The notes under the pieces were generated by a model, which made no database searches, had not been told where the DNA came from, and saw only the letters and a list, made by a program, of their open reading frames with translations. From positions 806,001 to 870,000 of the forward strand of contig NZ_WYEU01000002.1 in the NCBI RefSeq assembly GCF_015143595.1: a stretch of 64,000 nucleotides of DNA, in the 5' to 3' direction. The position numbers and the translations under genes were made by a program. Every line of letters begins with the position of its first letter. The first letter of the stretch is position 1. This document shows, in pieces, positions 17,799 through 30,539 of this stretch. Source of the DNA: Sneathiella sp. P13V-1. Lineage in GTDB: Bacteria > Pseudomonadota > Alphaproteobacteria > Sneathiellales > Sneathiellaceae.

Positions 17799-18263
17799 CT
17801 ACTTAGTAATTTTAAATTGGAAGCAATTGTATTTCTTAGATCTCACATGAACTTCTTTGGCATTCATATTTTCAAAAACATTTAGGGCAAACTCTTCGAT
17901 ACCCATTGCTGACACTATGTCGCCGCTTCCATAAATGATCCGCTCCTCGGCATCATAACCGCGTATCAAGTATGCATTATCCCCATATGCAATTTTGGGA
18001 AATTCATTTTCTTTGTGTCGCTCACATTCTTTTTCACACAGAAAGACCGGACCTGTTTCAGAGTAAGCATGAGTTCCAGAAAATGGTTTATAGGCGAATA
18101 CAAGAATGCCCGCACCCTCTGGTATTTCTTCAAGACAATGGCGACACGGATTTCCTTGCCCGTCAGAAATAACTCTGTCTGGAGGATTCCCGTAGGCATC
18201 AATGCCGCCACGCTGGATAGATCTGGCATGATTTGTCGGGATAGCACAGTAACTTAGTTTCAT
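17799..18263 (-). CDS. DUF1203 domain protein
   Basis: A 154-residue protein matching DUF1203: an N-terminal segment with an Arg/Gly-rich turn, NPCRHC (Cys40, Cys43), YKPFSGTHAYSETGPVF, and CEKECERH (Cys76, Cys80), then YLIRGYD and a late beta-rich tail. The two cysteine pairs could hold zinc, but no function is established for the family. ATG 18263 is set by GGAGAG just upstream; a TTG at 18275 lies inside that site. It is monocistronic. Confidence 0.75.
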   Translation of the reverse strand: MKLSYCAIPTNHARSIQRGGIDAYGNPPDRVISDGQGNPCRHCLEEIPEGAGILVFAYKPFSGTHAYSETGPVFLCEKECERHKENEFPKIAYGDNAYLIRGYDAEERIIYGSGDIVSAMGIEEFALNVFENMNAKEVHVRSKKYNCFQFKITK

Positions 18264-18400
18264 TTTTCTCTCCAATAGGACTTATCGGAAGAAAAATTAG
18301 TCGCACCTACATCATAAGCCGACCCGTTTCTTGCTATTTTATTGAGCCTACTGAATTTGAAACATTAGGTGGCTGGGACACGTAACCTATAGATCCAAAA

Positions 18401-19903
18401 TCACTGTTTATTTTCAAGTTCTGCAAAGATCTTTTGCGCCGTTGGTGTCATGGCAAGGCCGCCTTTACCGGTGCAGCGAAGCTCGCATGGGATGGCGAGG
18501 CCGACTTTATGCATGGCGACGATCACCTCGTCCAAAGGAATAAGTGCATCAAAGCCCGCCAATATCATATTAGCTGCGGAAAGCGCATTTCCTGCCATCA
18601 ACACATTTTTCCCAAGGCATGGTGCCTCAACCCGATTGGCAACCGGATCGCACACAAGACCAAATGTGTTCTGTAACGCAAAGGACGCCGCAGAAACGCA
18701 TTGATCAACGGTTCCATCAAACAGCGTTACCAAGGCCGCGGCCGCCATGCCGGACCCCGACCCTGTTTCTGCCTGACAGCCCCCGAGTTCTGCCGAAAAA
18801 GTGGCCATATGGGCAATGAAAACACCTATAAGACCAGCCGATAGCATCGCTTTGACTTTTAAGTCTTCATCAAGCCCCAAGGCATTGGCAACACCAAGGC
18901 AGGTGCCGGGTAAGGTTCCACATGATCCCGCTGTTGGTGCGGCGACAATAACCCCCATGGAACTTTTCACATCCATCAATGCAGTGACGGCCAAGATGAC
19001 ATCGTCTTGCAGGCCAAGGTTCATGCCCTTGTTTGCGCCCATACGTTCCTTGTAAAGCGGAGCTTGCGCGCCATACATACGGTCTTCGTATTCAGTGCCT
19101 TTAATCCCTAATCGGATGGAGTTTTCCAGAATGCGGACAATCGCCCGCATTTTTTCAAACACTTCGTCTTCGGAAATGTTGCCGCGGGCGCTTTCGTATT
19201 TAACGGCCAGTTCCCAAAAACTCAGGTCCCTGCCTTTATTATAATCCAGCATTTCTTCACTGGTCGTAAATGGAACGGAAAGGTCTTTGCGCGCTCCGAC
19301 AGGGAGAACCGGCTTCATTTCCTTGGAAGAAACACCTTCCGGTAAGGATATCGGTTTTTGTGATTTAATCTGGAAAGCGCCATCACGCTTAATGATGTAA
19401 TCAGCGTCTACGCCTTCAACAACGTTTTCGTCATCTGAGAAGACAAGCGTTTCGTGATAGTCGCCAAACATGGAAACTTTTACACCATTAATTTCGGTGA
19501 TTTCCATCATGCCGCCGCCGATAGAAATGGCATAAAGTGTCATTTCCTCATTGTCGTTGGCGACCGTCAAACGGTAGGTGTTTTCATGGGTTGCACCGTA
19601 ATCCAGTATCCGGATTTCAACTTCAGTACCGCTCTCTTCAAGATGGGTGCGGGCCTCTGTCATCCGTGGATCGGTTACATCCCACCCCATCAAACCTGTA
19701 AACAACCCCATGTCAGAGCCCTGACTTTCATGGGTCGGTCCTAATGAAGTGTTGGGGTCATAATCCACAACGACTTTCTTGATATTTCCATTCATATAGT
19801 CCCGCGCAAGTGCACCAATACGGTGCGCCGCGGCCACATGGGAACTGCTTGCCCCGCGCATCACCGGGCCGATGGCATCATTGAAAATGGATGGGTAATT
19901 CAT
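18401..19903 (-). CDS. L-serine ammonia-lyase, iron-sulfur type (alpha and beta parts fused)
   Basis: A 500-residue single-chain serine dehydratase. The N-terminal beta part has GPVMRGASSSHVAAAHRI and a SLGPTHESQGSD stretch; the alpha part has PTAGSCGTLPGT, GGCQAETGSGSGMAAAA, FGLVCDPVANRVEAPC and CELRCTGKGGLAM. Cys376, Cys418 and Cys429 are the likely ligands of the [4Fe-4S] cluster that activates the substrate hydroxyl; the reaction is serine to pyruvate and ammonia. It is the last gene of the hydroxyproline-type operon, 3 bases after the preceding gene. In that setting it may act on serine or on another hydroxy-amino acid. Confidence 0.85.
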   Translation of the reverse strand: MNYPSIFNDAIGPVMRGASSSHVAAAHRIGALARDYMNGNIKKVVVDYDPNTSLGPTHESQGSDMGLFTGLMGWDVTDPRMTEARTHLEESGTEVEIRILDYGATHENTYRLTVANDNEEMTLYAISIGGGMMEITEINGVKVSMFGDYHETLVFSDDENVVEGVDADYIIKRDGAFQIKSQKPISLPEGVSSKEMKPVLPVGARKDLSVPFTTSEEMLDYNKGRDLSFWELAVKYESARGNISEDEVFEKMRAIVRILENSIRLGIKGTEYEDRMYGAQAPLYKERMGANKGMNLGLQDDVILAVTALMDVKSSMGVIVAAPTAGSCGTLPGTCLGVANALGLDEDLKVKAMLSAGLIGVFIAHMATFSAELGGCQAETGSGSGMAAAALVTLFDGTVDQCVSAASFALQNTFGLVCDPVANRVEAPCLGKNVLMAGNALSAANMILAGFDALIPLDEVIVAMHKVGLAIPCELRCTGKGGLAMTPTAQKIFAELENKQ

Positions 19904-19906
19904 GAG

Positions 19907-20941
19907 TTATCCCTTCAACATGGGCCAAGTATCGCCAATACGGTAGCCTTCTGGCCACGGATCTGTTGGATCCAGCATATGTTGATAAGTGCCGGTAATC
20001 CATGCCTGACCGGAAAGCTCTGGAATAATGGCTTTCTTATCGCCAAGAGTTGTCTCGGATATAATACGTCCATCAAACCGGGAGTTAATCACTGATCGTT
20101 GGATATAATTTTCACCAACCTGCATTATTCCGCGGGCGTGCAAAACAGCCATTCGGGCGGAAACCGCCGTTCCTGTTGGGGATCGGTCCAATTTGCCCGG
20201 CTGAATAACAACTGTGTTTTTGACAGATTTAACGCCCTCTTCTTCCGTCATTGGGGCATGGATCTGACAGAAGGAAATATGCTGCCAATCGGAATTAGTT
20301 GGATGGCTGAACCCAAGCTGCTCATTGGCGGCATTGGTGATTTTAATGCCAACCTCCGCCAAATCACGGGCTTCATCCGGTGTAATGTCAAACCCAAGTG
20401 CTTTGGCATCCGCCATGACAAAGCTATCGCCGCCAAAGGCGGTATCCACGGTAAGTGTCCCTACCCCGGCAACTTCTAATGTGGCGTCCAGTTTATCGGC
20501 AAAGGACGGAACATTTTGTACATACACCTTGGTGACCTTGCCGTCCTTGCAGTCGGCACGCACTTCAACCAAACCGCCCGGGGCTTCCAAAGTCATATGG
20601 GTCACCGGCTCCTGCATCGGTATAATCCCGCTTTCCAGAAGAACCGTGCTCACACAAATGGAATTTGATCCGGACATGGGCGGCGTGTCTTCGGGCTCCA
20701 TAATGATCCAACCCATTTGCGCCTTCGGGTTTTTGGGCGGCACCAATAAGTTTACATGGCGAAACACACCACCACGGGGCTCGTTTAGCACAAAGTTACG
20801 AAGCGTTTCGTCTTTTGCAATAAAGCGGGATTGTTCCCAGATAGTCTCACCCGGCGGCGGGGCAACGCCACCAACTATAACATCGCCAACTTCACCTTCG
20901 GCGTGACAGCCAATGATATGGATGGATTTACTGGAACGCAT
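19907..20941 (-). CDS. Proline racemase family protein, Ser/Thr variant (trans-3-hydroxyproline dehydratase-like)
   Basis: A 344-residue proline-racemase-fold enzyme. In this fold two residues, one on each side of C-alpha, act as acid/base. Here the first region reads [11 protein letters not shown], putting Ser90 where epimerases have Cys, and the second reads [12 protein letters not shown], putting Thr256 where they have Cys. Loss of the second Cys to Thr is known in trans-3-hydroxy-L-proline dehydratases, so dehydration is more likely than racemisation; the Ser at the first site is less usual. Its ATG overlaps the stop of the Cys/Cys epimerase by one base (TAATG). Confidence 0.75.
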
Positions 20942-21942
20942 TACTTCACCACAAACCCGTGTGCATACGGATCCCTGTCATCAATATAAATTGTATTGGT
21001 TCCTGTCTGGCGCGCCCAACCTGCCACGGATGGAATAATTGCTGATTTTCCAGCAACTTCCGTCACATCTTCAACACGTCCTTTGAACATGGAGCCGATG
21101 ATGCTTTCATGATGAAACTCATCCCCTTTATTCAATTTTCCAAGGGCTGCCCATTGCGCCATCCGGCTGGACGTTCCTGTTCCGCAAGGAGATCGATCAA
21201 TAGCCTTGTCTCCATAAAAAACAGCATTACGGGCATGTGCACCGTCAACTGTCGGCTCCCCAGTCCATAGGATATGACTAAGGCCATTGATTTCTGGATG
21301 TTCAGGGTGAACAAAGTCGTATTTGTCGTTTAATGCCTGGCGTAGCAGCGGGCTGTATTTCACTAATTCCGTTGCAGAATAATCTGCCATGTCACGGAAA
21401 TTATCCTGTGGATCAACGATGGCGTAGAAATTACCGCCATACGCCACGTCTACGGTAATTTCACCCAGATCTTCAATTTCCGCTGTAAGCCCTTGTTTGT
21501 AAAGGAAGGCTGGCACATTGGTAAGCCGCACTTCTTCCACATACTCACCTTCTTGACGATATTCGACAACAACGCGTCCAGCAGGCGTATCAAGGTTTAG
21601 AACTCCTGGGGTTTTGGGTGTCACAAGACCGTTTTCAATGGCCATGGTCACGGTTCCGATGGTCCCATGACCGCACATAGGCAAACATCCAGATGTTTCG
21701 ATATACAGAACACCCACATCGCAATCGTCACGGGTTGGCGGATACAAGATCGATCCTGACATCATGTCGTGACCACGGGGTTCGAACATCAAGCCGGTTC
21801 GGATCCAGTCATATTCCGCCAGAAAATGTGCCCGCTTTTCCAGCATGGTATTGCCTTTAAGTTCCGGTCCGCCGCCAGCGACCAAGCGCACCGGGTTACC
21901 GCATGTATGACCATCAAGACAGAAAAAGGTGTGTCGTGCCAT
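20941..21942 (-). CDS. 4-hydroxyproline 2-epimerase
   Basis: A 333-residue member of the proline racemase family with both catalytic cysteines: Cys90 in [10 protein letters not shown] and Cys253 in [12 protein letters not shown], plus the substrate Asp249. It should interconvert trans-4-hydroxy-L-proline and cis-4-hydroxy-D-proline. Operon neighbours (D-amino-acid dehydrogenase, HpcD-like lyase, semialdehyde dehydrogenase) supply the remaining steps and favour hydroxyproline over proline. The ribosome site is weak. The gene is known as hypE or lhpA in other organisms. Confidence 0.85.
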
Positions 21943-21951
21943 TAGTTGTAC

Positions 21952-23193
21952 TCACTTAAAACGAGCTGCGCTCAACGCTTTCATATTGATATCTTTAGGT
22001 GTTTTGCCCTGGATCAGCTGGCTTACCATTTCGCCCATCGCAGTGGATTGGGTTAATCCCAGATGGCCGTTTCCGAAGGCATAAATGATGTTATCAGAGG
22101 CGGAAGAATATCCAATCACTGGCAGAGTATCCGGCAAGGACGGACGACGTCCCATCCATTGCTCACCCCCTTCAGGATTTAGTTTTGGCAGCATTTCTGC
22201 AGCCTTGTTCAGCATATATTCTGACCGCTTGTAATTTGCGGGGCTATCCAATGAGGCAATTTCTGATGCGCCGCCAATTCGTACGCCATTAGCAAGAGGG
22301 GTCACCATAAATCCGTGATCACCGAACACCAAAGAATGCTCCAATTCAGGCCAAGCGGATTTTGGCAAGGTGGTGTTATATCCCCGCTCCCCGATCAATG
22401 GGATGTTATCGCCAAGATCATCGGCCAGTGTTTTAGACCAGGGACCGGCTGCGATAACGATTTTATCGGCGACTATTTCGCTGCCATCTGTCAGGTAAAC
22501 AACCTTGTCTGACACCTTTTTTACCTCTTTTTTCACCATTTTGACGCCTTTTTGCGTCAAATAGTCAAAAATGGCATGACAGAAGTCATTCGGGTTTGAA
22601 ACAGATTGCCAGGAACTCGCATAGATCCCTGCAACGAACTTATCAGACAATCCGGGCTGAAACTGATGGAGCGCGGTTTTATCGAAAGTCTGGTAAGGAA
22701 TGCCGTGTTCAGCCACATATTTCCAGTTTTCTACATCCGCATTAAAGGACGCTTCACTTTCATAAAGGCTGAGCGCGCCGTTTGTTCGAACCATGGATTG
22801 CAGTCCAGTCCGATCCAGCATTTTTGGATATGTTTCTGCGGCCAAATGCATCAAGGACGCCTGCACATTGATGCTGGTTTTATATTGTGACGCCCGCGTT
22901 GATTTCAGAAACTTAAAAAGCCACGGGGCAACCTTGAAGATATCCCGCGGAACCACAGAAAAGGGTCCCACAGGATCCAGAAACCACTTGATGGCTTTTT
23001 TGATAACTGAAGGGGAAGCCAGCGGCAAAATTTCCGGAAAGGCAAGTCCTGCTGCGTTGCCAAAACTGGCCCCAGCCGCAATGCCTTCCCTCTCAACCAT
23101 TGTTACCTGATGACCGTCTGCAATTAAACGTTCAGAGGTGTTGAGGCCAATAATTCCGCCGCCAATTACTACTACTTGATACGACTTCCCCAT
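21952..23193 (-). CDS. FAD-dependent D-amino-acid dehydrogenase (D-hydroxyproline dehydrogenase-like)
   Basis: A 413-residue DAO/DadA-family flavoprotein. VVIGGGIIGLNTSERL is the FAD-binding Rossmann motif, AAGASFGNAAGLAFP the family turn, and PWSKTLADDLGDNIPLIGER and YAFGNGHLGLTQS are the late FAD/substrate elements. By context it oxidises cis-4-hydroxy-D-proline to pyrroline-4-hydroxy-2-carboxylate and passes electrons to the respiratory chain. It is a single-subunit form, unlike the multi-subunit enzyme of some pseudomonads. AAGGAA precedes the start. Confidence 0.85.
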   Translation of the reverse strand: MGKSYQVVVIGGGIIGLNTSERLIADGHQVTMVEREGIAAGASFGNAAGLAFPEILPLASPSVIKKAIKWFLDPVGPFSVVPRDIFKVAPWLFKFLKSTRASQYKTSINVQASLMHLAAETYPKMLDRTGLQSMVRTNGALSLYESEASFNADVENWKYVAEHGIPYQTFDKTALHQFQPGLSDKFVAGIYASSWQSVSNPNDFCHAIFDYLTQKGVKMVKKEVKKVSDKVVYLTDGSEIVADKIVIAAGPWSKTLADDLGDNIPLIGERGYNTTLPKSAWPELEHSLVFGDHGFMVTPLANGVRIGGASEIASLDSPANYKRSEYMLNKAAEMLPKLNPEGGEQWMGRRPSLPDTLPVIGYSSASDNIIYAFGNGHLGLTQSTAMGEMVSQLIQGKTPKDINMKALSAARFK

Positions 23194-23205: not shown

Positions 23206-24636
23206 TTAAGGCAATGTGTAAGAAGTTTTTACAACTGAATAGAATTCAGCGGCGTAACGACCCTGTTCACGAGAACCGTAGGAAGAGCCTTTCGTGCCGC
23301 CAAATGGAACATGATAATCCACACCCGCAGTAGGAAGATTTACCATAACCATACCCGCTTTGGAATTGGCTTTAAAATCAGAAGCATACTTCAAAGACGT
23401 TGTGCAGATACCGGCGGACAGACCAAATTCTGTTTCATTGGCCAGACGCAATGCATCCGCATAGTCTTTTGCTTTGATAACAGTGGCAACCGGACCAAAC
23501 ACCTCTTCTGTGTTGATGCGCATGTCGTTTGTTGTATCAACAAACAATGCTGGTGCCATGAAGTGACCGTTACCGTCAAGTTTCTCACCACCGCAGGCAA
23601 GCTTTGCACCTTCCGCCTTGGCGATATCTACATATTCAAGATCTTTAACCAGCTGACGTTCGTCAACAACAGGACCAATTTGTGTAGAACTGTCGCGTGC
23701 ATCCCCTACTTTCAATTCGGAGACCGCCTTTGTCATAGCCGCAACGAAGTCATCATAAATGCCTTCTGTCACGATAAGGCGGCTGGATGCCGTGCAGCGC
23801 TGACCCGTTGAGAAAAAGGCACCGTTCAAACAAGCGCCAACCGCAACGTCCAGATCAGCATCGTCCAGAACCACCATCGGGTTCTTGCCCCCCATTTCCA
23901 GCTGCACCTTCTTAAGGTTTCTTGCGCAGACTTCGGCAACAGTTTTGCCTGTCGATACGGATCCAGTAAATGAAATCGCATTGACTTTTGGATGATCAAT
24001 CATCACAGGACCAATTTCAGATCCGCGACCATTTACAAGATTGAAAACACCATCTGGAAGGCCTGCGCGTTTCAAAATATCCGCAATTGCCCAAGCACAA
24101 CCAGGTACAAGTTCAGCGGCTTTCAGAACAACAGAGTTACCAAAAGCCAACGCGGGCGCCACTTTCCATGCTGGAATGGCAATCGGGAAGTTCCATGGCG
24201 TAATCATACCGACAACACCAACAGGTTCACGGCGGATTTCAACGCCAACACCCGGGCGAACGGAATCCATGCTTTCGCCCTGAATACGAAGGGCTTCACC
24301 TGCGAAGAATTTGAAAATCTGACCGGCACGCGCAACTTCACCAATACCTTCTGGCAGAGTTTTACCTTCTTCACGTGCGAGAAGATCACCAAGTTCTTCT
24401 TTACGGGCAAGGATTTCAGTACCGGCCGCATCAAGTATATCGAAACGCTGCTGCGGGTTTGATTTACCCCAGCTTACTTGTGCTGCGACCGCCGCTTCAA
24501 TGGCGGCTTCCATTTCTGCAGGTGTAGCACTTGCGGCCATACCAACAGTGTCATTCGTATCAGATGGGTTGATGTTGGGAACGCTGCGCGTTCCCATTGT
24601 CCATTCCCCACCGATCAGGTTTGGAAATTCAGTCAT
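23206..24636 (-). CDS. Aldehyde dehydrogenase, likely 2-oxoglutarate semialdehyde dehydrogenase
   Basis: A 476-residue NAD(P)-dependent aldehyde dehydrogenase. It shows the cofactor region TPWNFPIAIPAWKVAPALA, SFTGSVSTGKTVAEV, the catalytic Glu in VQLEMGGKNP, catalytic Cys in FFSTGQRCTASSRL and EVFGPVATV. In hydroxyproline clusters this family oxidises 2-oxoglutarate semialdehyde to 2-oxoglutarate, which enters the TCA cycle. AGAGG upstream favours ATG 24636, with ATG 24639 also possible; a start at 24684 would overlap the upstream gene. Confidence 0.85.
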   Translation of the reverse strand: MTEFPNLIGGEWTMGTRSVPNINPSDTNDTVGMAASATPAEMEAAIEAAVAAQVSWGKSNPQQRFDILDAAGTEILARKEELGDLLAREEGKTLPEGIGEVARAGQIFKFFAGEALRIQGESMDSVRPGVGVEIRREPVGVVGMITPWNFPIAIPAWKVAPALAFGNSVVLKAAELVPGCAWAIADILKRAGLPDGVFNLVNGRGSEIGPVMIDHPKVNAISFTGSVSTGKTVAEVCARNLKKVQLEMGGKNPMVVLDDADLDVAVGACLNGAFFSTGQRCTASSRLIVTEGIYDDFVAAMTKAVSELKVGDARDSSTQIGPVVDERQLVKDLEYVDIAKAEGAKLACGGEKLDGNGHFMAPALFVDTTNDMRINTEEVFGPVATVIKAKDYADALRLANETEFGLSAGICTTSLKYASDFKANSKAGMVMVNLPTAGVDYHVPFGGTKGSSYGSREQGRYAAEFYSVVKTSYTLP

Positions 24637-24646
24637 CATCTGCCTC

Positions 24647-25546
24647 TTAGAGTGCGTATTTGGAAAGGTCAGGACGGCACGCAATCTGATCTTTAACGAT
24701 CTTTTCTACTTTCGCGCGGTGTTCACCTGCCAGGATCTGACGTGGTGCACGTACATATTCAGTAGAACCGATTGCAATGGCTTCTGCCAATTTGATCTGC
24801 TGAACAAGGAATGTAGAAACATCAAGATCCAGAAGTGGACGCATCCAACGGTAAATTTCGCGGGCTTCTTCAATACGGCCGGCTTTTACCAGATCGTAGA
24901 TGCGCTGGTTTTCTTCAGGGAATGCAATGGAAACACCTGAAACCCAACCATCAGCACCCATTAGAAGTGCTTCAAGACCCAAGTTATCTACACCTGTCAG
25001 GATCTTGTAGCGATCGCCACATGTATTGACGATCTCAGTCAGGCGGCGGATGTCGTCTGAGCTTTCCTTAATCGCAACCATACGATCATCTTCAGCAAGC
25101 TCTACCATCATTTCTGGTGTCACATCAACACGGTAAGCAACACGGTTGGAGTAAATCATCACAGGAAGATCGCCTGCAGAAGAAATGGCTTTCAGGTTAG
25201 TGATCGTCTCATCACGGCTTGTGTGATAGATCGGGGATGGAACCACCATCAGGCCATCTGCGCCTGCTTTGCGGGCTTTGTCTGCCAAATCACATGCTTC
25301 ACGCGTGCCTGCTTCGTTTACAGTCAGAAGAACTGGCTTGCTGCCCGCAGCAGATTTGGCGATTTTCATCACTTCGATACGCTCATCTGGGCTCAGCATG
25401 GAACCTTCGCCCAAGGTACCACATACGATGATACCGGCATTACCTGCATCGATCTGCAAACCTACGCAGCGTTCTGTTTCTTTTGCATCGATTTCACCGT
25501 CAGCTGTAAACTTGGTTGTTACAGCAGGCATCATTCCATTCCACAT
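24647..25546 (-). CDS. DHDPS/NAL-family lyase, likely pyrroline-4-hydroxy-2-carboxylate deaminase (HpcD-like)
   Basis: A 299-residue class I aldolase of the DapA/NanA family. CGTLGEGSMLSPDERIEV carries the ligand loop, YSNRVAYRVD has the catalytic Tyr, and VAIKESSDDIRRL holds the Schiff-base Lys. A true DapA would belong to lysine synthesis, but here it lies between an ABC importer and the semialdehyde dehydrogenase, which fits HpcD (deamination of pyrroline-4-hydroxy-2-carboxylate to 2-oxoglutarate semialdehyde). AAGGA precedes ATG 25546. Confidence 0.82.
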   Translation of the reverse strand: MWNGMMPAVTTKFTADGEIDAKETERCVGLQIDAGNAGIIVCGTLGEGSMLSPDERIEVMKIAKSAAGSKPVLLTVNEAGTREACDLADKARKAGADGLMVVPSPIYHTSRDETITNLKAISSAGDLPVMIYSNRVAYRVDVTPEMMVELAEDDRMVAIKESSDDIRRLTEIVNTCGDRYKILTGVDNLGLEALLMGADGWVSGVSIAFPEENQRIYDLVKAGRIEEAREIYRWMRPLLDLDVSTFLVQQIKLAEAIAIGSTEYVRAPRQILAGEHRAKVEKIVKDQIACRPDLSKYAL

Positions 25547-25598: not shown

Positions 25599-26321
25599 TT
25601 AACGAACGTTCGCCAAGAATTTTTTCGTATGTTCACTTTTAGGTTCGCCAAAAATCTGCTCTGGCGGACCAATTTCTTCCATAATCCCCTGATGGAAATA
25701 CGCCACACGATCAGATACATCGCGGGCAAATCCCATTTCATGAGTAACACAGATCATCGTCATGCCCTCCTCGGCCAGCATGCGCATGGTCTCCAGCACC
25801 TCACCCACCAATTCCGGGTCAAGTGCAGACGTCGCTTCATCGAACAGCATATAGTCTGGCTCCATCGCCAATGCACGTGCGATGGCAAGGCGTTGTTGCT
25901 GACCACCTGATAAAGCGGACGGGTAAACATCCAACTTGTCTGCAAGGCCCACATGGCGAAGTTGTTTTTCCGCCATTTCCATGGCCTGTGCCTTGGATTG
26001 TTTTTTTACAATCCGCGGTGACAAGGCCACATTTTCAATGGCTGTCAGGTGCGGGAAAGAATTCCATTGCTGAAACACCATCCCAAGATTTTGACGTAAC
26101 TTATTGATATCCGTTCCTTTTTCATGAACAGACACTCCATCAACAATCACTTCCCCTTCCTGAATGCTTTCAAGACCATTAATGCAATAAAGCAAGGTTG
26201 ACTTACCTGAACCGGAAGATCCGATGACGCTCAAAACTTCACCTTTGGCCACATTCAGATCAATTCCTTTGAGAACGTGCAGCTCTCCGAAATACTTATG
26301 GAGTCCCTTGATCTCAATCAT
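25599..26321 (-). CDS. Polar amino-acid ABC transporter, ATP-binding protein
   Basis: A 240-residue ABC ATPase of the GlnQ/HisP type: Walker [14 protein letters not shown]-loop in [13 protein letters not shown], signature [15 protein letters not shown], Walker [18 protein letters not shown] and the switch His in [14 protein letters not shown] 26321, with AGAGG upstream, overlaps the stop of the upstream permease by 4 bases. It powers uptake with the two permeases and the binding protein of this operon. Confidence 0.92.
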
Positions 26322-26980
26322 GAGGCCCACCTCTCTTCCAATTTCTGTGAGTATTTTGACAGCGGGTATGACAGCAAGAAGTAGAATGCCCCCGCAGACG
26401 CTAGAATAATAAATGGCTCTTGTGTTCTGGTGATCAGGATCTGAGAAGCGCGCAATAGCTCCACATATCCAAGAACAGATACCAGTGCACTGTCTTTCAC
26501 CACGCTAAGGGCAACACCAACCCATGCCGGGAATACTGCTCTCAGTCCAATTGGCCACACCACATAACGCAGATCCTGCCAGTAGCTCATACCTAGTGAG
26601 CGGGCGGCACGGCGCATAGGCTCTCCGACTGCTTCGATACCTCCACGGGCTACCTGAGCCACCAGTGAGGCTGTATAAACGCTAAGAACAACTGCACCGG
26701 ATGCAAAAGGGTCTAAATTAAGGCCAATAATTGGGAAGAAGTTATAGAAGAGTACCAGCTGAATAATCAGCGGCACACTTCTAAACACGTCCAAGATTGA
26801 ACCGATGGTGGCCCCTGCCACAAATTTGGAGGCTGATAACGCCCAACCAAATACAATACCCAGCACAGTACCTGCGGATATAGATACCGCAGATATCAGC
26901 AAAGTACGCCCGGCGGCTTCACCCAGGAATAAAAGGTCTCGTGCCTGAAATTCACTAAAGAAGGCAACTGAATCACTCAT
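26318..26980 (-). CDS. Polar amino-acid ABC transporter, permease
   Basis: A 220-residue inner-membrane permease of the HisMQ/GlnP type with about five membrane segments. The coupling EAA-loop reads [20 protein letters not shown]. It pairs with the second permease at 26996-27661 as a heterodimer. AAAGGAAG precedes ATG 26980, and the gene lies 15 bases after its partner. Confidence 0.9.
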
Positions 26981-26995: not shown

Positions 26996-27661
26996 TTAGT
27001 ATCTGAACAGACGGCGAGCCGCCAATTTTGAAACAAGTAAAACGATTTTCACGATCACGTAGTAGATTACGGCTGTCATCGCGAAATATTCGAAAATCCG
27101 ATATGTTTTAGAAGCAAAGAATTGTGTCTCACCAGAGAGTTCCCTAAAGCCAACCAGCATACCGAGGGAGCTCATCAACACCGCCCAAACCATCTGGTTT
27201 GTCATTGGGTGGTAAACGATCCTCAAAACCTGCGGAATGATAATTCTGATATAGGCTTGTGTTGCGGTCATCCCTAAAGAACGGGCCGCCCGTAACTGCG
27301 TGTCAGGAACTGCCTGAAAACCGCCACGAAAATTTTCCGCAAGATAGCCAGCGTTATTAAAGGATAATCCCATCAAAACAATCAGATAAGGGCTCAAATG
27401 CAAGCCAAAAGCCCCAAGACCAAAACCAAAAAAGAACAATTGAAAAAGAACCGGTGTGTTTCGGGCAAGTTCGACCCAAGTGGTTGCAAAAGCCCGAAGA
27501 GGTGCAGGACCCGACATCCGAGATATTGCCAGAAGCATCCCAACCACAATTCCGATAATCATGGAAAGCATCGCGACTTCCAATGTCAGAAGACCGGCCT
27601 CAAGGAGTTCCGGTAGTTTTCTGATAACAGGGCGCCAGTGAAAATTATAATCCACGATCAT
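26996..27661 (-). CDS. Polar amino-acid ABC transporter, permease
   Basis: A 221-residue HisMQ-type permease with an N-terminal helix then about four more membrane segments; the EAA loop reads [25 protein letters not shown] three bases ahead of ATG 27661 decides this start over an in-frame codon at 27676. It is the partner of the permease at 26318-26980. Confidence 0.9.
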   Translation of the reverse strand: MIVDYNFHWRPVIRKLPELLEAGLLTLEVAMLSMIIGIVVGMLLAISRMSGPAPLRAFATTWVELARNTPVLFQLFFFGFGLGAFGLHLSPYLIVLMGLSFNNAGYLAENFRGGFQAVPDTQLRAARSLGMTATQAYIRIIIPQVLRIVYHPMTNQMVWAVLMSSLGMLVGFRELSGETQFFASKTYRIFEYFAMTAVIYYVIVKIVLLVSKLAARRLFRY

Positions 27662-27715
27662 ATACCTCTCGTGCAAAGGGTCTCCCGCACGGCAATGCGG
27701 GAGACAAGTTGATCA

Positions 27716-28531
27716 TTAATACAGGACACCTGGAATACGTAGTTCTGGCGCATCGCCGCCAACATACTTCTTCCAAAGTTCCGCATAACGACCGGAGCGA
27801 ACCTGATGAGTTACAAACAGGTTGAGGTAGTTCAGCCAGGAAACGTCTTTGCGAGGGCCAACGACTGATGTGTAGTCAGTTGTCCATGGCATACGTGGAC
27901 CGGCGATGACAGTGTCATATTTTTCTACGATTGGCTTAACAGCTGTGTTTGTCGTGATACCAACGTCAGCTTTACCCTGAGCTACAGCAAGGAAAACTTC
28001 GTTTTCGCTTTGGTAACCCTGGTAATTACCTTCCCAGCCGCGCTCTTTCGCGATTTTCAGATATTCTTGTTCTGGAACTGTACCAACAGCTGCCGCAACA
28101 CGCTTACCCGCAAGATCGTCAAAAGTTACAACGCCGCTGTCTTTACCAACAACTGCTTGTGCGTAATAAATTGCGTATGGAATTGTGAAACCAACTGTTT
28201 TCGCACGCTCTAGGCTGTCAGAAGTTGCACCAAATACAACATCTGCACGGTTTGTTACGATAAGTGGAAGACGTTCCGCCCAAGTTGCCGGGATGATTTT
28301 TGCTTCAACATCCAATGCTTTTGCAAGGTCAGTACAGTAATCAACATCGAAACCTGCTGGTTCGTTGTTTGAGTCGCGATATCCGATTGGTGGGAAATCA
28401 AGAACAACGCCACAACGCAGTTCGCCACGGTCGATAACGTCATCAAGTTTATCAGCTTGTGCTGGGCTCATGGCTAACAGTGTCGCAAGACCTGCACCAA
28501 GGGCCGCAGTCTTCATAATTTTAGAAAACAT
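27716..28531 (-). CDS. Amino-acid ABC transporter, periplasmic substrate-binding protein
   Basis: A 271-residue family 3 binding protein with a Sec signal peptide ending MSPAQA (cleavage about residue 26). LRCGVVLDFPPIGYRD and GFDVDYCTDLAKAL are the usual family opening, and residues such as Arg in the ATSDSLERAKTVGFT region would hold the amino-acid carboxylate. A strong GGAGG precedes ATG 28531. It is the first gene of the ten-gene operon. By context the ligand is probably hydroxyproline or a related cyclic amino acid. Confidence 0.9.
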   Translation of the reverse strand: MFSKIMKTAALGAGLATLLAMSPAQADKLDDVIDRGELRCGVVLDFPPIGYRDSNNEPAGFDVDYCTDLAKALDVEAKIIPATWAERLPLIVTNRADVVFGATSDSLERAKTVGFTIPYAIYYAQAVVGKDSGVVTFDDLAGKRVAAAVGTVPEQEYLKIAKERGWEGNYQGYQSENEVFLAVAQGKADVGITTNTAVKPIVEKYDTVIAGPRMPWTTDYTSVVGPRKDVSWLNYLNLFVTHQVRSGRYAELWKKYVGGDAPELRIPGVLY

Positions 28532-28603
28532 AAGAAAACCTCCAAGTTAGTTCCCCCGACCCTGGCCAATTTGCCTTGTCTCCGCCGGTGGTGAGAGAAA
28601 CTT

Positions 28604-28629
28604 ATTGTAGATTGGATCCAATATGCAAT
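28604..28629. promoter_or_regulatory. Near-perfect 26-bp palindrome, likely GntR operator
   Basis: Of the 13 base pairs formed across the dyad, 11 match; the core ATTGGATCCAAT (28611-28622) is perfect. It lies between the divergent binding-protein gene and the GntR gene, 73 bases from one start and 97 from the other, where an operator controlling both would be expected. Confidence 0.7.
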
Positions 28630-28725
28630 ATATTTTTTACAATGATGTTTTACAATCGTCCGCCATTTGACAGAAACGCGTTAGTCGCCTATTCAAAATG
28701 TTATAAAAAACAAGGAGTTTGGATT

Positions 28726-29406
28726 GTGTATGAGGGTATGAAAGCACGGGCAATTGATCTTGCGAGAACAGCATCGTCATCCGATGTTATTTTCGACGCC
28801 CTTCGTGATGAAATCATCAGTGGCAATCTACAAGCTGGTGAGTCGATCCGTCAGGAATACATCGCAAAACTGTTTAACGTCAGCCGAATTCCAGTGCGTG
28901 AGGCCCTGAAACGTCTGGAAGCTCAGGGGCTTGTAAAAAATGAACGGTACAAAGGTGCTGTCGTTTCATCCCTCTCTGATGACGAAATCCGCGAGATTTA
29001 TGAGATTCGCATGAATCTGGAGCCCTTGGTGATCCAGTATTCCGTGGAAAACATGAAGCCAGATACTCTCGCTTTGGCCCGAGAATACTGCGACCGTTTC
29101 GGTGAAGAGGAAGACCCCGCCCGCTGGGGAGAGCTTAACCGCAACTTCCATGAAACCTTATACCGGGAATGCAAACGGCCGTTTCATTTAAAGATTGTTG
29201 GGGAAGCAATCGACAGGATTGATAGCTACATTCGGGCTCAACTAGTGCTTACAAAGGGTATGAACAAAGCTGTCGTCGAACATCAGGCGATCTTGGACGC
29301 CTGCGTTGAGGGGAACGGAAAATTGGCTGCCGACCTCACAAGGCAACATATTGAGGACTCGTACGATTCCTTGATGAGTTTCCTGAATAAAAAAGGGGCT
29401 CAATAG
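28726..29406 (+). CDS. GntR family transcriptional regulator (FadR/FCD type)
   Basis: A 226-residue regulator. The winged HTH spans about residues 20-85 with RQEYIAKLFNVSRIPVREAL and RLEAQGLV; the C-terminal all-helical FCD domain has EIYEIRMNLEPLVIQYSVE, NRNFHETLYREC and VEHQAILDACVEGN, whose His residues commonly hold a metal. I start it at GTG 28726 because AAGGAG lies 8 bases upstream; ATG 28738 is possible, and the frame up to 28576 has no support. It most likely represses the divergent operon until its inducer binds. Confidence 0.85.
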   Translation: MYEGMKARAIDLARTASSSDVIFDALRDEIISGNLQAGESIRQEYIAKLFNVSRIPVREALKRLEAQGLVKNERYKGAVVSSLSDDEIREIYEIRMNLEPLVIQYSVENMKPDTLALAREYCDRFGEEEDPARWGELNRNFHETLYRECKRPFHLKIVGEAIDRIDSYIRAQLVLTKGMNKAVVEHQAILDACVEGNGKLAADLTRQHIEDSYDSLMSFLNKKGAQ

Positions 29407-29441: not shown

Positions 29442-30539
29442 CTACTGAAGGCAGGTATTCATCTCGGTGGCGATCTTTACGATCAACATCTCGTAAAGAT
29501 CAGCATCTGGATTTATGGTTGACCCAACTGGATCAAGTGTCCCTGATCTAACCTCTGAACCTTTAGACACGACTTTGACCAACTTTTCGGGGAATTGCGG
29601 TTCTCTAAAAATACATACGGCCCCACGGTCTTCGATGACATCTCTCAGTTCCGCGACGCGTTTCGCGGATGCGCCTTCATCGGGACGCAGAAGAATGGAT
29701 CCTACACCTGTCAATCCATAGTGTTTTTCAAAATACTGAAACGCATCGTGGAAAACGATGTAGGGCTTTGATTTGACACCCTCTAACAAGCCAGCCACTT
29801 TCCGATCAGTTGCTTCAATTCTTTCAATAGCCTTTTCAGCATTTGCCTCAAATTGAGCTTTTTTATCAGGGTAAGTTTCAGACAGTTTGCTGGAAATAGC
29901 CTTCACCATCTTGATCGCATTTTCGGGATCTAACCATACATGCGCGTCGGATGCACCATGATGATCATGGTCGTCATGTTTTGCATGATCGTGCCCTTTG
30001 TGGTCGTCATGCTTCTCATGGTCATGATCTTTGTGATCATGGTGCTTGTGATCGTCATGTTTCTCATGATCATGACCTTTGTGGTCATCATGCTTTTCAT
30101 GGTCGTGATCATCATGTTTTGCATGGTCATGATCTCTGTGATCGTCATGTCTTTCATGAGATCCGTGATCATGTCCCGCCCAGATACCTCCTTCACGAAT
30201 GTTATGAAGGGTGAGACCTTTAGTTTCATTTAGTTCGACAGATTTCATTTGCCCGTTCAGTGGTTTGGACAAGAAACTTTCAATATTTGGACCAATCCAA
30301 AACACAAGATCAGAAGAAACAATCTTCTTCATTTCAGAGGGGCGCAGATAGTATCCGTGCGGGGAACTGGAACCCGACACAAGAAGATGGTTTTCTCCCT
30401 GCTCCCCCATAACCATGGAAACCAGAGAATGAACGGGAGCGATACTAGAGACGACTTTGATGTCTTTAGCGATTGCAGTTTGAGCAGTGATCAAAGTGAG
30501 ACCAGCAGCAAACAAAGTAGAGATGGATAATTGCTTCAT
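29442..30539 (-). CDS. znuA: Zinc ABC transporter substrate-binding protein ZnuA with His-rich loop
   Basis: A 365-residue cluster A-I (Mn/Zn) binding protein. A signal peptide ends TAIA (residue 24). Zinc-site histidines are in VHSLVSMV, SSSPHGYYLRPSE and VFHDAFQYFEKHYG. Residues 123-194 are a His/Asp loop with 29 histidines, typical of ZnuA but long. ZnuA gathers periplasmic zinc for the ZnuBC importer. A Zur box overlaps the promoter, so it should be induced when zinc is scarce. No znuB or znuC is in the window; they must lie elsewhere, or this is a second ZnuA. The ribosome site is weak. Confidence 0.92.
   Translation of the reverse strand: MKQLSISTLFAAGLTLITAQTAIAKDIKVVSSIAPVHSLVSMVMGEQGENHLLVSGSSSPHGYYLRPSEMKKIVSSDLVFWIGPNIESFLSKPLNGQMKSVELNETKGLTLHNIREGGIWAGHDHGSHERHDDHRDHDHAKHDDHDHEKHDDHKGHDHEKHDDHKHHDHKDHDHEKHDDHKGHDHAKHDDHDHHGASDAHVWLDPENAIKMVKAISSKLSETYPDKKAQFEANAEKAIERIEATDRKVAGLLEGVKSKPYIVFHDAFQYFEKHYGLTGVGSILLRPDEGASAKRVAELRDVIEDRGAVCIFREPQFPEKLVKVVSKGSEVRSGTLDPVGSTINPDADLYEMLIVKIATEMNTCLQ
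29958..30173 (-). repeat. Tandem His/Asp-coding repeat inside znuA
   Basis: The stretch codes for a degenerate array of units such as HDHEKHDDHK and HDHAKHDDHD. DNA copies of roughly 30-45 bases are near-identical in places, so slipped-strand length changes are likely. The antisense frames are also open here only because of the simple composition. Confidence 0.85.

Follow-up and report, generated by a model that had tools for sequence, protein, structure and literature searches.

The window analysed here, a stretch of 64,000 nucleotides from Sneathiella sp. P13V-1 (contig NZ_WYEU01000002.1, positions 806,001 to 870,000), carries at 19907-20941 a gene of the proline racemase family whose product has Ser90 and Thr256 at the places of the two canonical catalytic cysteines. 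The subfamily to which this product belongs, as an ordinary member, is known and structurally characterised. By analogy with its relatives, it is most probably a Ser-type trans-3-hydroxy-L-proline dehydratase (t3HypD), in which Ser90 would serve as the base and Thr256 as a mere filler. Sequence, motifs, predicted fold, family membership and gene neighbourhood were observed directly for the window protein. An earlier note on this DNA had described a protein lacking both cysteines beside a paralogue (20941-21942) that keeps them. It had proposed that the protein had specialised in a second function and had not decayed, being possibly a dehydratase with Ser as base or an enzyme for a different hydroxy-amino acid, and had left undecided whether any Ser/Thr pair had been characterised. 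The residues are as described, including those of the paralogue (MCGHG and DRSPCGTG). As to the interpretation, the specialised function and, by homology to B9K4G4/4K7G (PMC4113996), the Ser-base dehydratase stand, and the different substrate is not supported. Novelty is without basis, since the Ser/Thr version is an already published dehydratase type with a solved structure; the earlier characterisation of Ser/Thr members that the note would have taken as a refutation exists (PMC4113996, PMC4364671).

Catalytic residues, family and structural relatives

The gene and the codons of the residues under discussion are the following.

20941 down to 19907, minus strand: proline-racemase-family gene, predicted Type II trans-3-hydroxy-L-proline dehydratase, 344 residues, ATG start
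20674-20672, minus strand: TCC, codon of Ser90, catalytic in 4K7G (4K7G alignment and PMC4113996)
20665-20663, minus strand: AAT, codon of Asn93, which positions the catalytic Ser in 4K7G (figure legend of PMC4113996)
20176-20174, minus strand: ACA, codon of Thr256, in place of the second Cys and in a non-catalytic orientation in 4K7G (legend of PMC4113996)

The Pfam profile Pro_racemase matches residues 9-334 over its whole length (profile positions 1-325 of 325, 450.6 bits). The first site reads PMSGSNSI, with Ser90 and Asn93, and the second LDRSPTGTA, with Thr256; SGSN and DRSPTGT are the motifs of Type II, or cluster 3 of the proline racemase superfamily (PRS). Ser90 is found in all 112 de-duplicated relatives at at least 40% identity, and position 256 is Thr in 90 of them, Cys in 21 and Lys in one. 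Because this pattern is kept across the 112 relatives, the Ser90/Thr256 pair is neither chance nor a sequencing error. Ser92 and Asn93 are present in 113 of 113 Ser90 rows, the window protein counted in; that set was picked for Ser90, so that its own Ser90 count is circular and the identity-based one is 112/112. A hidden catalytic cysteine, for which the earlier note had left room, was considered and rejected: the four further cysteines (Cys12, Cys96, Cys131 and Cys225) all lie away from the two catalytic positions, and 4K7G, a dehydratase structure, has Val in place of Cys12. Cys96 and Cys131 occur in 113/113 Ser90 rows and in none of the five Cys-type rows compared, and are possibly structural or redox residues; for comparison, a Cys104-Cys137 disulfide is reported in the human enzyme (PMC9309405).

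Among the NCBIfam models, the equivalog NF047722 (T3LHypDht) matches at 651.9 bits against a cut-off of 550 (residues 1-341 of the 341-position model). The next best, the proline racemase NF010576, is not reached (276 bits against 556), nor is any 4-hydroxyproline 2-epimerase (4HypE) model, the best being NF010578 (201.3 bits against 376). With its Ser/Thr pair and scores under these cut-offs, the protein falls outside the Cys/Cys 4HypE and proline racemase classes. With Ser90 and a place outside the 18-row Cys/Thr clade of the tree described below, it also falls outside the Cys/Thr class (Type I).

A Ser/Thr protein, B9K4G4 of Agrobacterium vitis, was solved with pyrrole-2-carboxylate and deposited as t3HypD, 4K7G (PMC4113996, eLife 2014). 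According to a figure legend of that paper, Ser90 is catalytic for dehydration, Asn93 positions Ser90 and the orientation of Thr256 is non-catalytic; dehydration of trans-3-hydroxyproline by B9K4G4 was observed by nuclear magnetic resonance. The paper contains an inconsistency. A sentence of its section 10 calls B9K4G4 the Ser/Cys 4HypE, a role that the figure legend gives to B9JQV3, and both this legend and section 12 have B9K4G4 as the dehydratase with Ser90/Thr256. Ser-Thr proteins were named trans-3-hydroxy-L-proline dehydratase (T3LHypD) Type II in PMC4364671 (PLoS One 2015).

The window protein aligns without gaps with 4K7G, which comes from another organism, 236 of 341 residues being identical (69%), and the numbers of its Ser90, Asn93 and Thr256 are therefore those of the published structure. 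Identical residues include Ser90, Gly91, Ser92 and Asn93, the run from Asp252 to Thr258, His213 and Pro214, and Asp218, Trp219, His221, Ser223 and Phe224 of the shared DWxHxSF stretch. Two of the 26 listed positions compared differ, Cys12 (Val in 4K7G) and Ala259 (Gly in 4K7G). In an AlphaFold model made from a 37-row alignment (pLDDT 90.7, pTM 0.89), Ser90 immediately precedes helix 91-103 and Thr256 immediately precedes helix 257-269. The structure nearest to this model is again 4K7G (Foldseek E 7.4e-59; Z 53.9, root-mean-square deviation 1.4 A over 338 residues). The model and this comparison display the proline racemase fold, the facing of the opposing helices being taken from the structures of PMC4113996.

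By sequence, the closest solved structures are 4K8L (top), 1TM0 and 4K7G. Both 4K8L (Ochrobactrum anthropi) and 1TM0 (Brucella melitensis) belong to cluster 3 and have the Ser/Thr pair (Ser90/Thr256 in 4K8L), with 72% and 67% identity, respectively, in the structural alignment. However, their active sites are disordered in the crystals, and 4K8L is grouped with 4HypE in the deposition statement (PMC4113996). The Type I dehydratases are about 26-33% identical to the window protein. They share its predicted reaction, its fold and a second-site Thr but have Cys, not Ser, at the first site, as illustrated by human L3HYPDH (7QPO; Cys104 and Thr273) and by the T. litoralis enzyme (6R76; residue pair assumed from the class description in PMC4364671). 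Finally, the Ser/Cys 4HypE B9JQV3 of A. vitis (4LB0, 37% identity) shares the catalytic Ser and the same proposed Asn-positioned motif (PMC4113996), but its second base is Cys and it is an epimerase.

Predicted mechanism and competing readings

In the family mechanism, a single general base removes the proton from C-alpha, and the conjugate acid of this base likely aids loss of the 3-hydroxyl (syn); the dehydration product then tautomerises, and a reductase converts the resulting delta1-pyrroline-2-carboxylate to L-proline (PMC4113996). For the window protein, substrate, base, stereochemistry, proton transfer and product are carried over from the characterised relatives. Ser90, N-terminal on its helix and set by Asn93, would take the C-alpha proton of trans-3-hydroxy-L-proline, and the conjugate acid of Ser90 would assist departure of the 3-hydroxyl in a syn-dehydration. 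The product would be delta2-pyrroline-2-carboxylate, tautomerising to delta1-pyrroline-2-carboxylate. On the opposite face, Thr256 would only occupy the second Cys position; since it would only fill that place, little or no reprotonation from its side, that is epimerisation, is expected. A pyrroline-2-carboxylate reductase would then yield L-proline, the candidate here being a gene of the OCD family some 142 kb from the operon.

The alternative that survives best is that the protein acts mainly, or to an equal extent, as a 2-epimerase on 3- or 4-hydroxyproline, using Ser90 and, as the second acid/base, water or another group, with dehydration secondary; we regard this as unlikely. Several published observations weigh in its favour and against a simple dehydratase. 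PRS cluster 3 is described as functionally heterogeneous and promiscuous, its member D0B556 (cited without its residue pair) epimerises 3-hydroxyproline, and 4K8L, the top sequence match, also with Ser90/Thr256, is listed under 4HypE (PMC4113996). LhpL of P. aeruginosa, also cited without its residue pair, is a bifunctional dehydratase/2-epimerase (PMC5144071). Because the published cluster members are functionally mixed, an epimerase side activity is possible for the window protein, and even a principal one. On the other hand, a dedicated Cys/Cys 4HypE already adjoins the gene in its operon, the place of the usual second base is taken by Thr256, whose orientation in 4K7G is non-catalytic (PMC4113996), and the 4HypE scores stay under their cut-offs.

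The reductase step may also count against the dehydratase assignment; a gene for it often lies close to Type II genes but does not strictly define the type. The operon has no pyrroline-2-carboxylate reductase gene, and a profile search of the window's genome gave no Ldh_2 match. Two OCD-family proteins of this genome exceed the Pfam cut-off, and the first is an ornithine cyclodeaminase (NF005762, 576.8 against 350). The second (G000:C2:682668-683597, L199 7669-8601) has as its best model a pyrroline/piperideine-2-carboxylate reductase, below cut-off (283.9 against 322), and its gene sits after a metH-like and before a LysE-like gene (names given by reading the sequence), with no hydroxyproline genes there. 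Over 298 columns, this protein shares 57% identity with the product of the OCD gene that follows the dehydratase orthologue in Terasakiella, and that product has a score of 260.4 with the same reductase model. This homology speaks for the dehydratase assignment, as does the gene order elsewhere: an OCD-family gene comes directly after the dehydratase orthologue at two loci of Terasakiella and two of the Endozoicomonas group, two of these four genes having been typed. Orthologues of the second OCD protein at at least 57% identity occur in 12 of the 25 Sneathiellales genomes of our order sample, so that the gene does not go with the Ser/Thr type in particular. It is no more than a candidate for the predicted reductase.

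That the window protein acts on a different hydroxy-amino acid, as the earlier note had allowed, is very improbable: its substrate is assigned by homology, and the next gene is a relative of iron-sulfur (Fe-S) hydroxy-amino-acid dehydratases, but in the motifs and the pocket stretch the residues compared match those of 4K7G, the NF047722 equivalog cut-off is passed and the gene is placed among hydroxyproline genes. A decayed, inactive copy, which the loss of both canonical cysteines taken alone would suggest, can be dismissed, as can a misalignment, given the open frame and coupled start (TAATG overlap), the conservation of Ser90 in 112/112 relatives and of Ser92/Asn93 in the Ser90-selected rows, and the activity of a homologue with the same Ser/Thr pair (PMC4113996).

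Evolution and distribution of the residue pairs

A quick tree was computed from 158 rows of the family, comprising the window protein and loci in the range L006 to L143, under LG+G4 with SH-aLRT support only; the tool warns of meeting long branches. Rows under 280 residues and eight overlapping loci were excluded. Rows were selected for their similarity either to the protein at 19907-20941 (the best 80 of 360) or to NF047722, and their counts, Ser/Thr 91, Ser/Cys 21, Ser/Lys 1, Cys/Cys 27 and Cys/Thr 18, are not natural frequencies. Residue 90 shows a single change on this tree. At residue 256, 10 changes are needed within the 113 Ser90 rows, the lone Lys accounting for one; the Ser/Thr and Ser/Cys labels need 9 changes each, 5 of which are forced by well-supported branches, and Thr/Cys switching is seen even within Pseudomonas. 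Label shuffles on the tree show clustering of the labels, nothing more. The window protein falls in a set of 9 rows, all of them Ser/Thr (support 99*), from Sneathiella, Terasakiella, Kiloniella and the Endozoicomonas group. Since Thr and Cys toggle repeatedly at residue 256, the Ser90 clade is a natural series for questions about this residue, and suits testing whether one residue sets dehydratase-only versus dehydratase-plus-epimerase chemistry. A Ser-type member with Lys256 (DRSPKGTA) was noted in Ruegeria sp. 6PALISEP08 (L136 5468-6499).

In the order sample, NF047722 is matched above cut-off in 3 of the 25 genomes, always by a Ser/Thr protein. A Cys/Thr protein is present in at least 19 of 25, namely 18 genomes through loci L008-L034 plus G002 (L214), and an incomplete fragment in G020 (L216) starts like the Cys/Thr protein. 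G002 has Cys/Thr and Ser/Thr together; in G000, the window's genome, and in G018, only the Ser/Thr and Cys/Cys types were found. No family match was obtained in G016 and G017, which are 66% and 56% complete, and G014 gave only a fragment without either motif. Within one genus, different species have two distinct subfamilies, both of predicted dehydratase type as judged by their residues, and the Ser/Thr unit is patchily distributed in the genus Sneathiella. We found no literature linking Sneathiella with hydroxyproline.

The operon and its Fe-S neighbour

Besides the dehydratase gene, the locus comprises the following genes.

28576-29406, plus strand: GntR/FCD regulator, divergent from the operon (Pfam GntR and FCD)
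27716-28531, minus strand: family 3 solute-binding protein (Pfam SBP_bac_3)
26996-27676, minus strand: ATP-binding cassette (ABC) transporter permease (Pfam BPD_transp_1)
26318-26980, minus strand: ABC transporter permease (Pfam BPD_transp_1)
25599-26330, minus strand: ABC transporter ATPase (Pfam ABC_tran)
24647-25546, minus strand: DHDPS-family protein (Pfam DHDPS, 186.9 bits), predicted delta1-pyrroline-4-hydroxy-2-carboxylate (Pyr4H2C) deaminase, a putative role
23206-24684, minus strand: aldehyde dehydrogenase (Pfam Aldedh, 547.4 bits), predicted alpha-ketoglutarate semialdehyde (alpha-KGSA) dehydrogenase
21952-23193, minus strand: FAD-dependent DAO-family oxidoreductase (Pfam DAO, 195.4 bits), predicted cis-4-hydroxy-D-proline dehydrogenase from the operon and the pathway in PMC4113996
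20941-21942, minus strand: Cys/Cys 4-hydroxyproline 2-epimerase (NF010578, 610.3 bits against 376; motifs given above)
18401-19903, minus strand: divergent member of the Fe-S serine-dehydratase family with fused beta and alpha parts, encoded by the operon's final gene (Pfam SDH_alpha, 212.7 bits)

The predicted gene set of the operon fits hydroxyproline catabolism, the neighbourhood used for a Type II assignment. A neighbouring superfamily gene pair, one 4HypE and one t3HypD, is described in several species in PMC4113996, and the arrangement at the window locus matches this pair. The epimerase stop and the dehydratase ATG share one base (TAATG), and the Fe-S gene begins 3 bases past the dehydratase stop; because of this overlap and this short gap, the three genes are very likely translated together. 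For the aldehyde dehydrogenase, the open reading frame listed has a TTG start and orthologues start at a Met at 24636; its best NCBIfam matches are dioxovalerate/alpha-KGSA dehydrogenases, all below cut-offs.

Loci of relatives were compared by tblastn (E 1e-15), with up to 10 kb of flanking sequence, often less. A GntR/FCD regulator occupies the equivalent place at the Sneathiella, Terasakiella and Kiloniella loci. At two Kiloniella laminariae loci (L067, L068), the cluster is reduced to GntR, the ABC importer, DHDPS, the Ser/Thr dehydratase and the Fe-S gene; in the stretches examined there, no match to the epimerase, DAO or aldehyde dehydrogenase was found.

The Fe-S neighbour is the one remaining lead, separate from the dehydratase and testable. 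It stays below the cut-off of NCBIfam TIGR00718 (225.6 against 243.2) and is 32% identical to a separate, ordinary serine dehydratase of the same genome. Copies at at least 75% identity occur in exactly the 3 of 25 Sneathiellales genomes with the Ser/Thr enzyme, adjoining the dehydratase each time, and every other match in these genomes is at most 34% identical. In a phylum sample of 398 genomes, a close copy is found only in the window's own genome, the next best matches being at most 44% identical. The gene is also beside the dehydratase in Terasakiella (one gene between), Kiloniella and Neptunomonas. Among the best 80 of 360 dehydratase-relative loci, it is present in 7, L064-L068 included; the copy at L076 is 49% identical, and that at L089, about 9 kb away on the opposite strand, 51%. 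Since only 7 of these 80 loci have a copy, most dehydratase relatives do without it.

An alignment of 36 ordinary and 8 window-type Fe-S proteins was made, from which the partial L089 and L180 were dropped and in which L147-L149 and L178 are shown apart. Of 82 columns with at least 95% conservation among the ordinary proteins, the window-type proteins agree at 57, including Cys376, Cys418 and Cys429, which we take to be the cluster ligands. They depart at the other 25, some only in part of the eight. All eight have Ser for Gly60, Gln for His61 and Cys for Glu477, and 7 of 8 have Lys for Arg432. One way to read these departures is a new substrate. Gln61 and Cys477 as proof of a new substrate are weakened by the related L147-L149, which have both. 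Two loci of that group, L207 and L208, stand beside apparent choline/betaine oxidation genes (a reading of the open reading frames with no family search), a setting in which the substrate would be expected to be serine.

It is more likely that the predicted 18401-19903 protein is a plain co-regulated serine dehydratase. That it is itself a hydroxyproline dehydratase, for example of cis-3-hydroxy-L-proline, is unlikely. If this were true, the operon would handle 4-, trans-3- and cis-3-hydroxyproline, and the serine dehydratase family would be a further independent solution for cis-3-hydroxyproline beside aconitase X and the enolase-superfamily enzyme. A profile search of the window's genome gave no match to aconitase X; for MR_MLE_C (enolase superfamily), one match lies over the Pfam cut-off (G000:C5:73064-73516, L218) and one under, so a known cis-3 enzyme may be present through the MR_MLE_C protein. 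We found no relevant literature on a serine dehydratase in a hydroxyproline gene cluster.

Two further genes flank the locus on the minus strand. A DUF1203 protein is encoded immediately downstream of the operon (17799-18275), and a ZnuA-type zinc-binding protein at 29442-30539 carries a long His/Asp-rich repeat insert.
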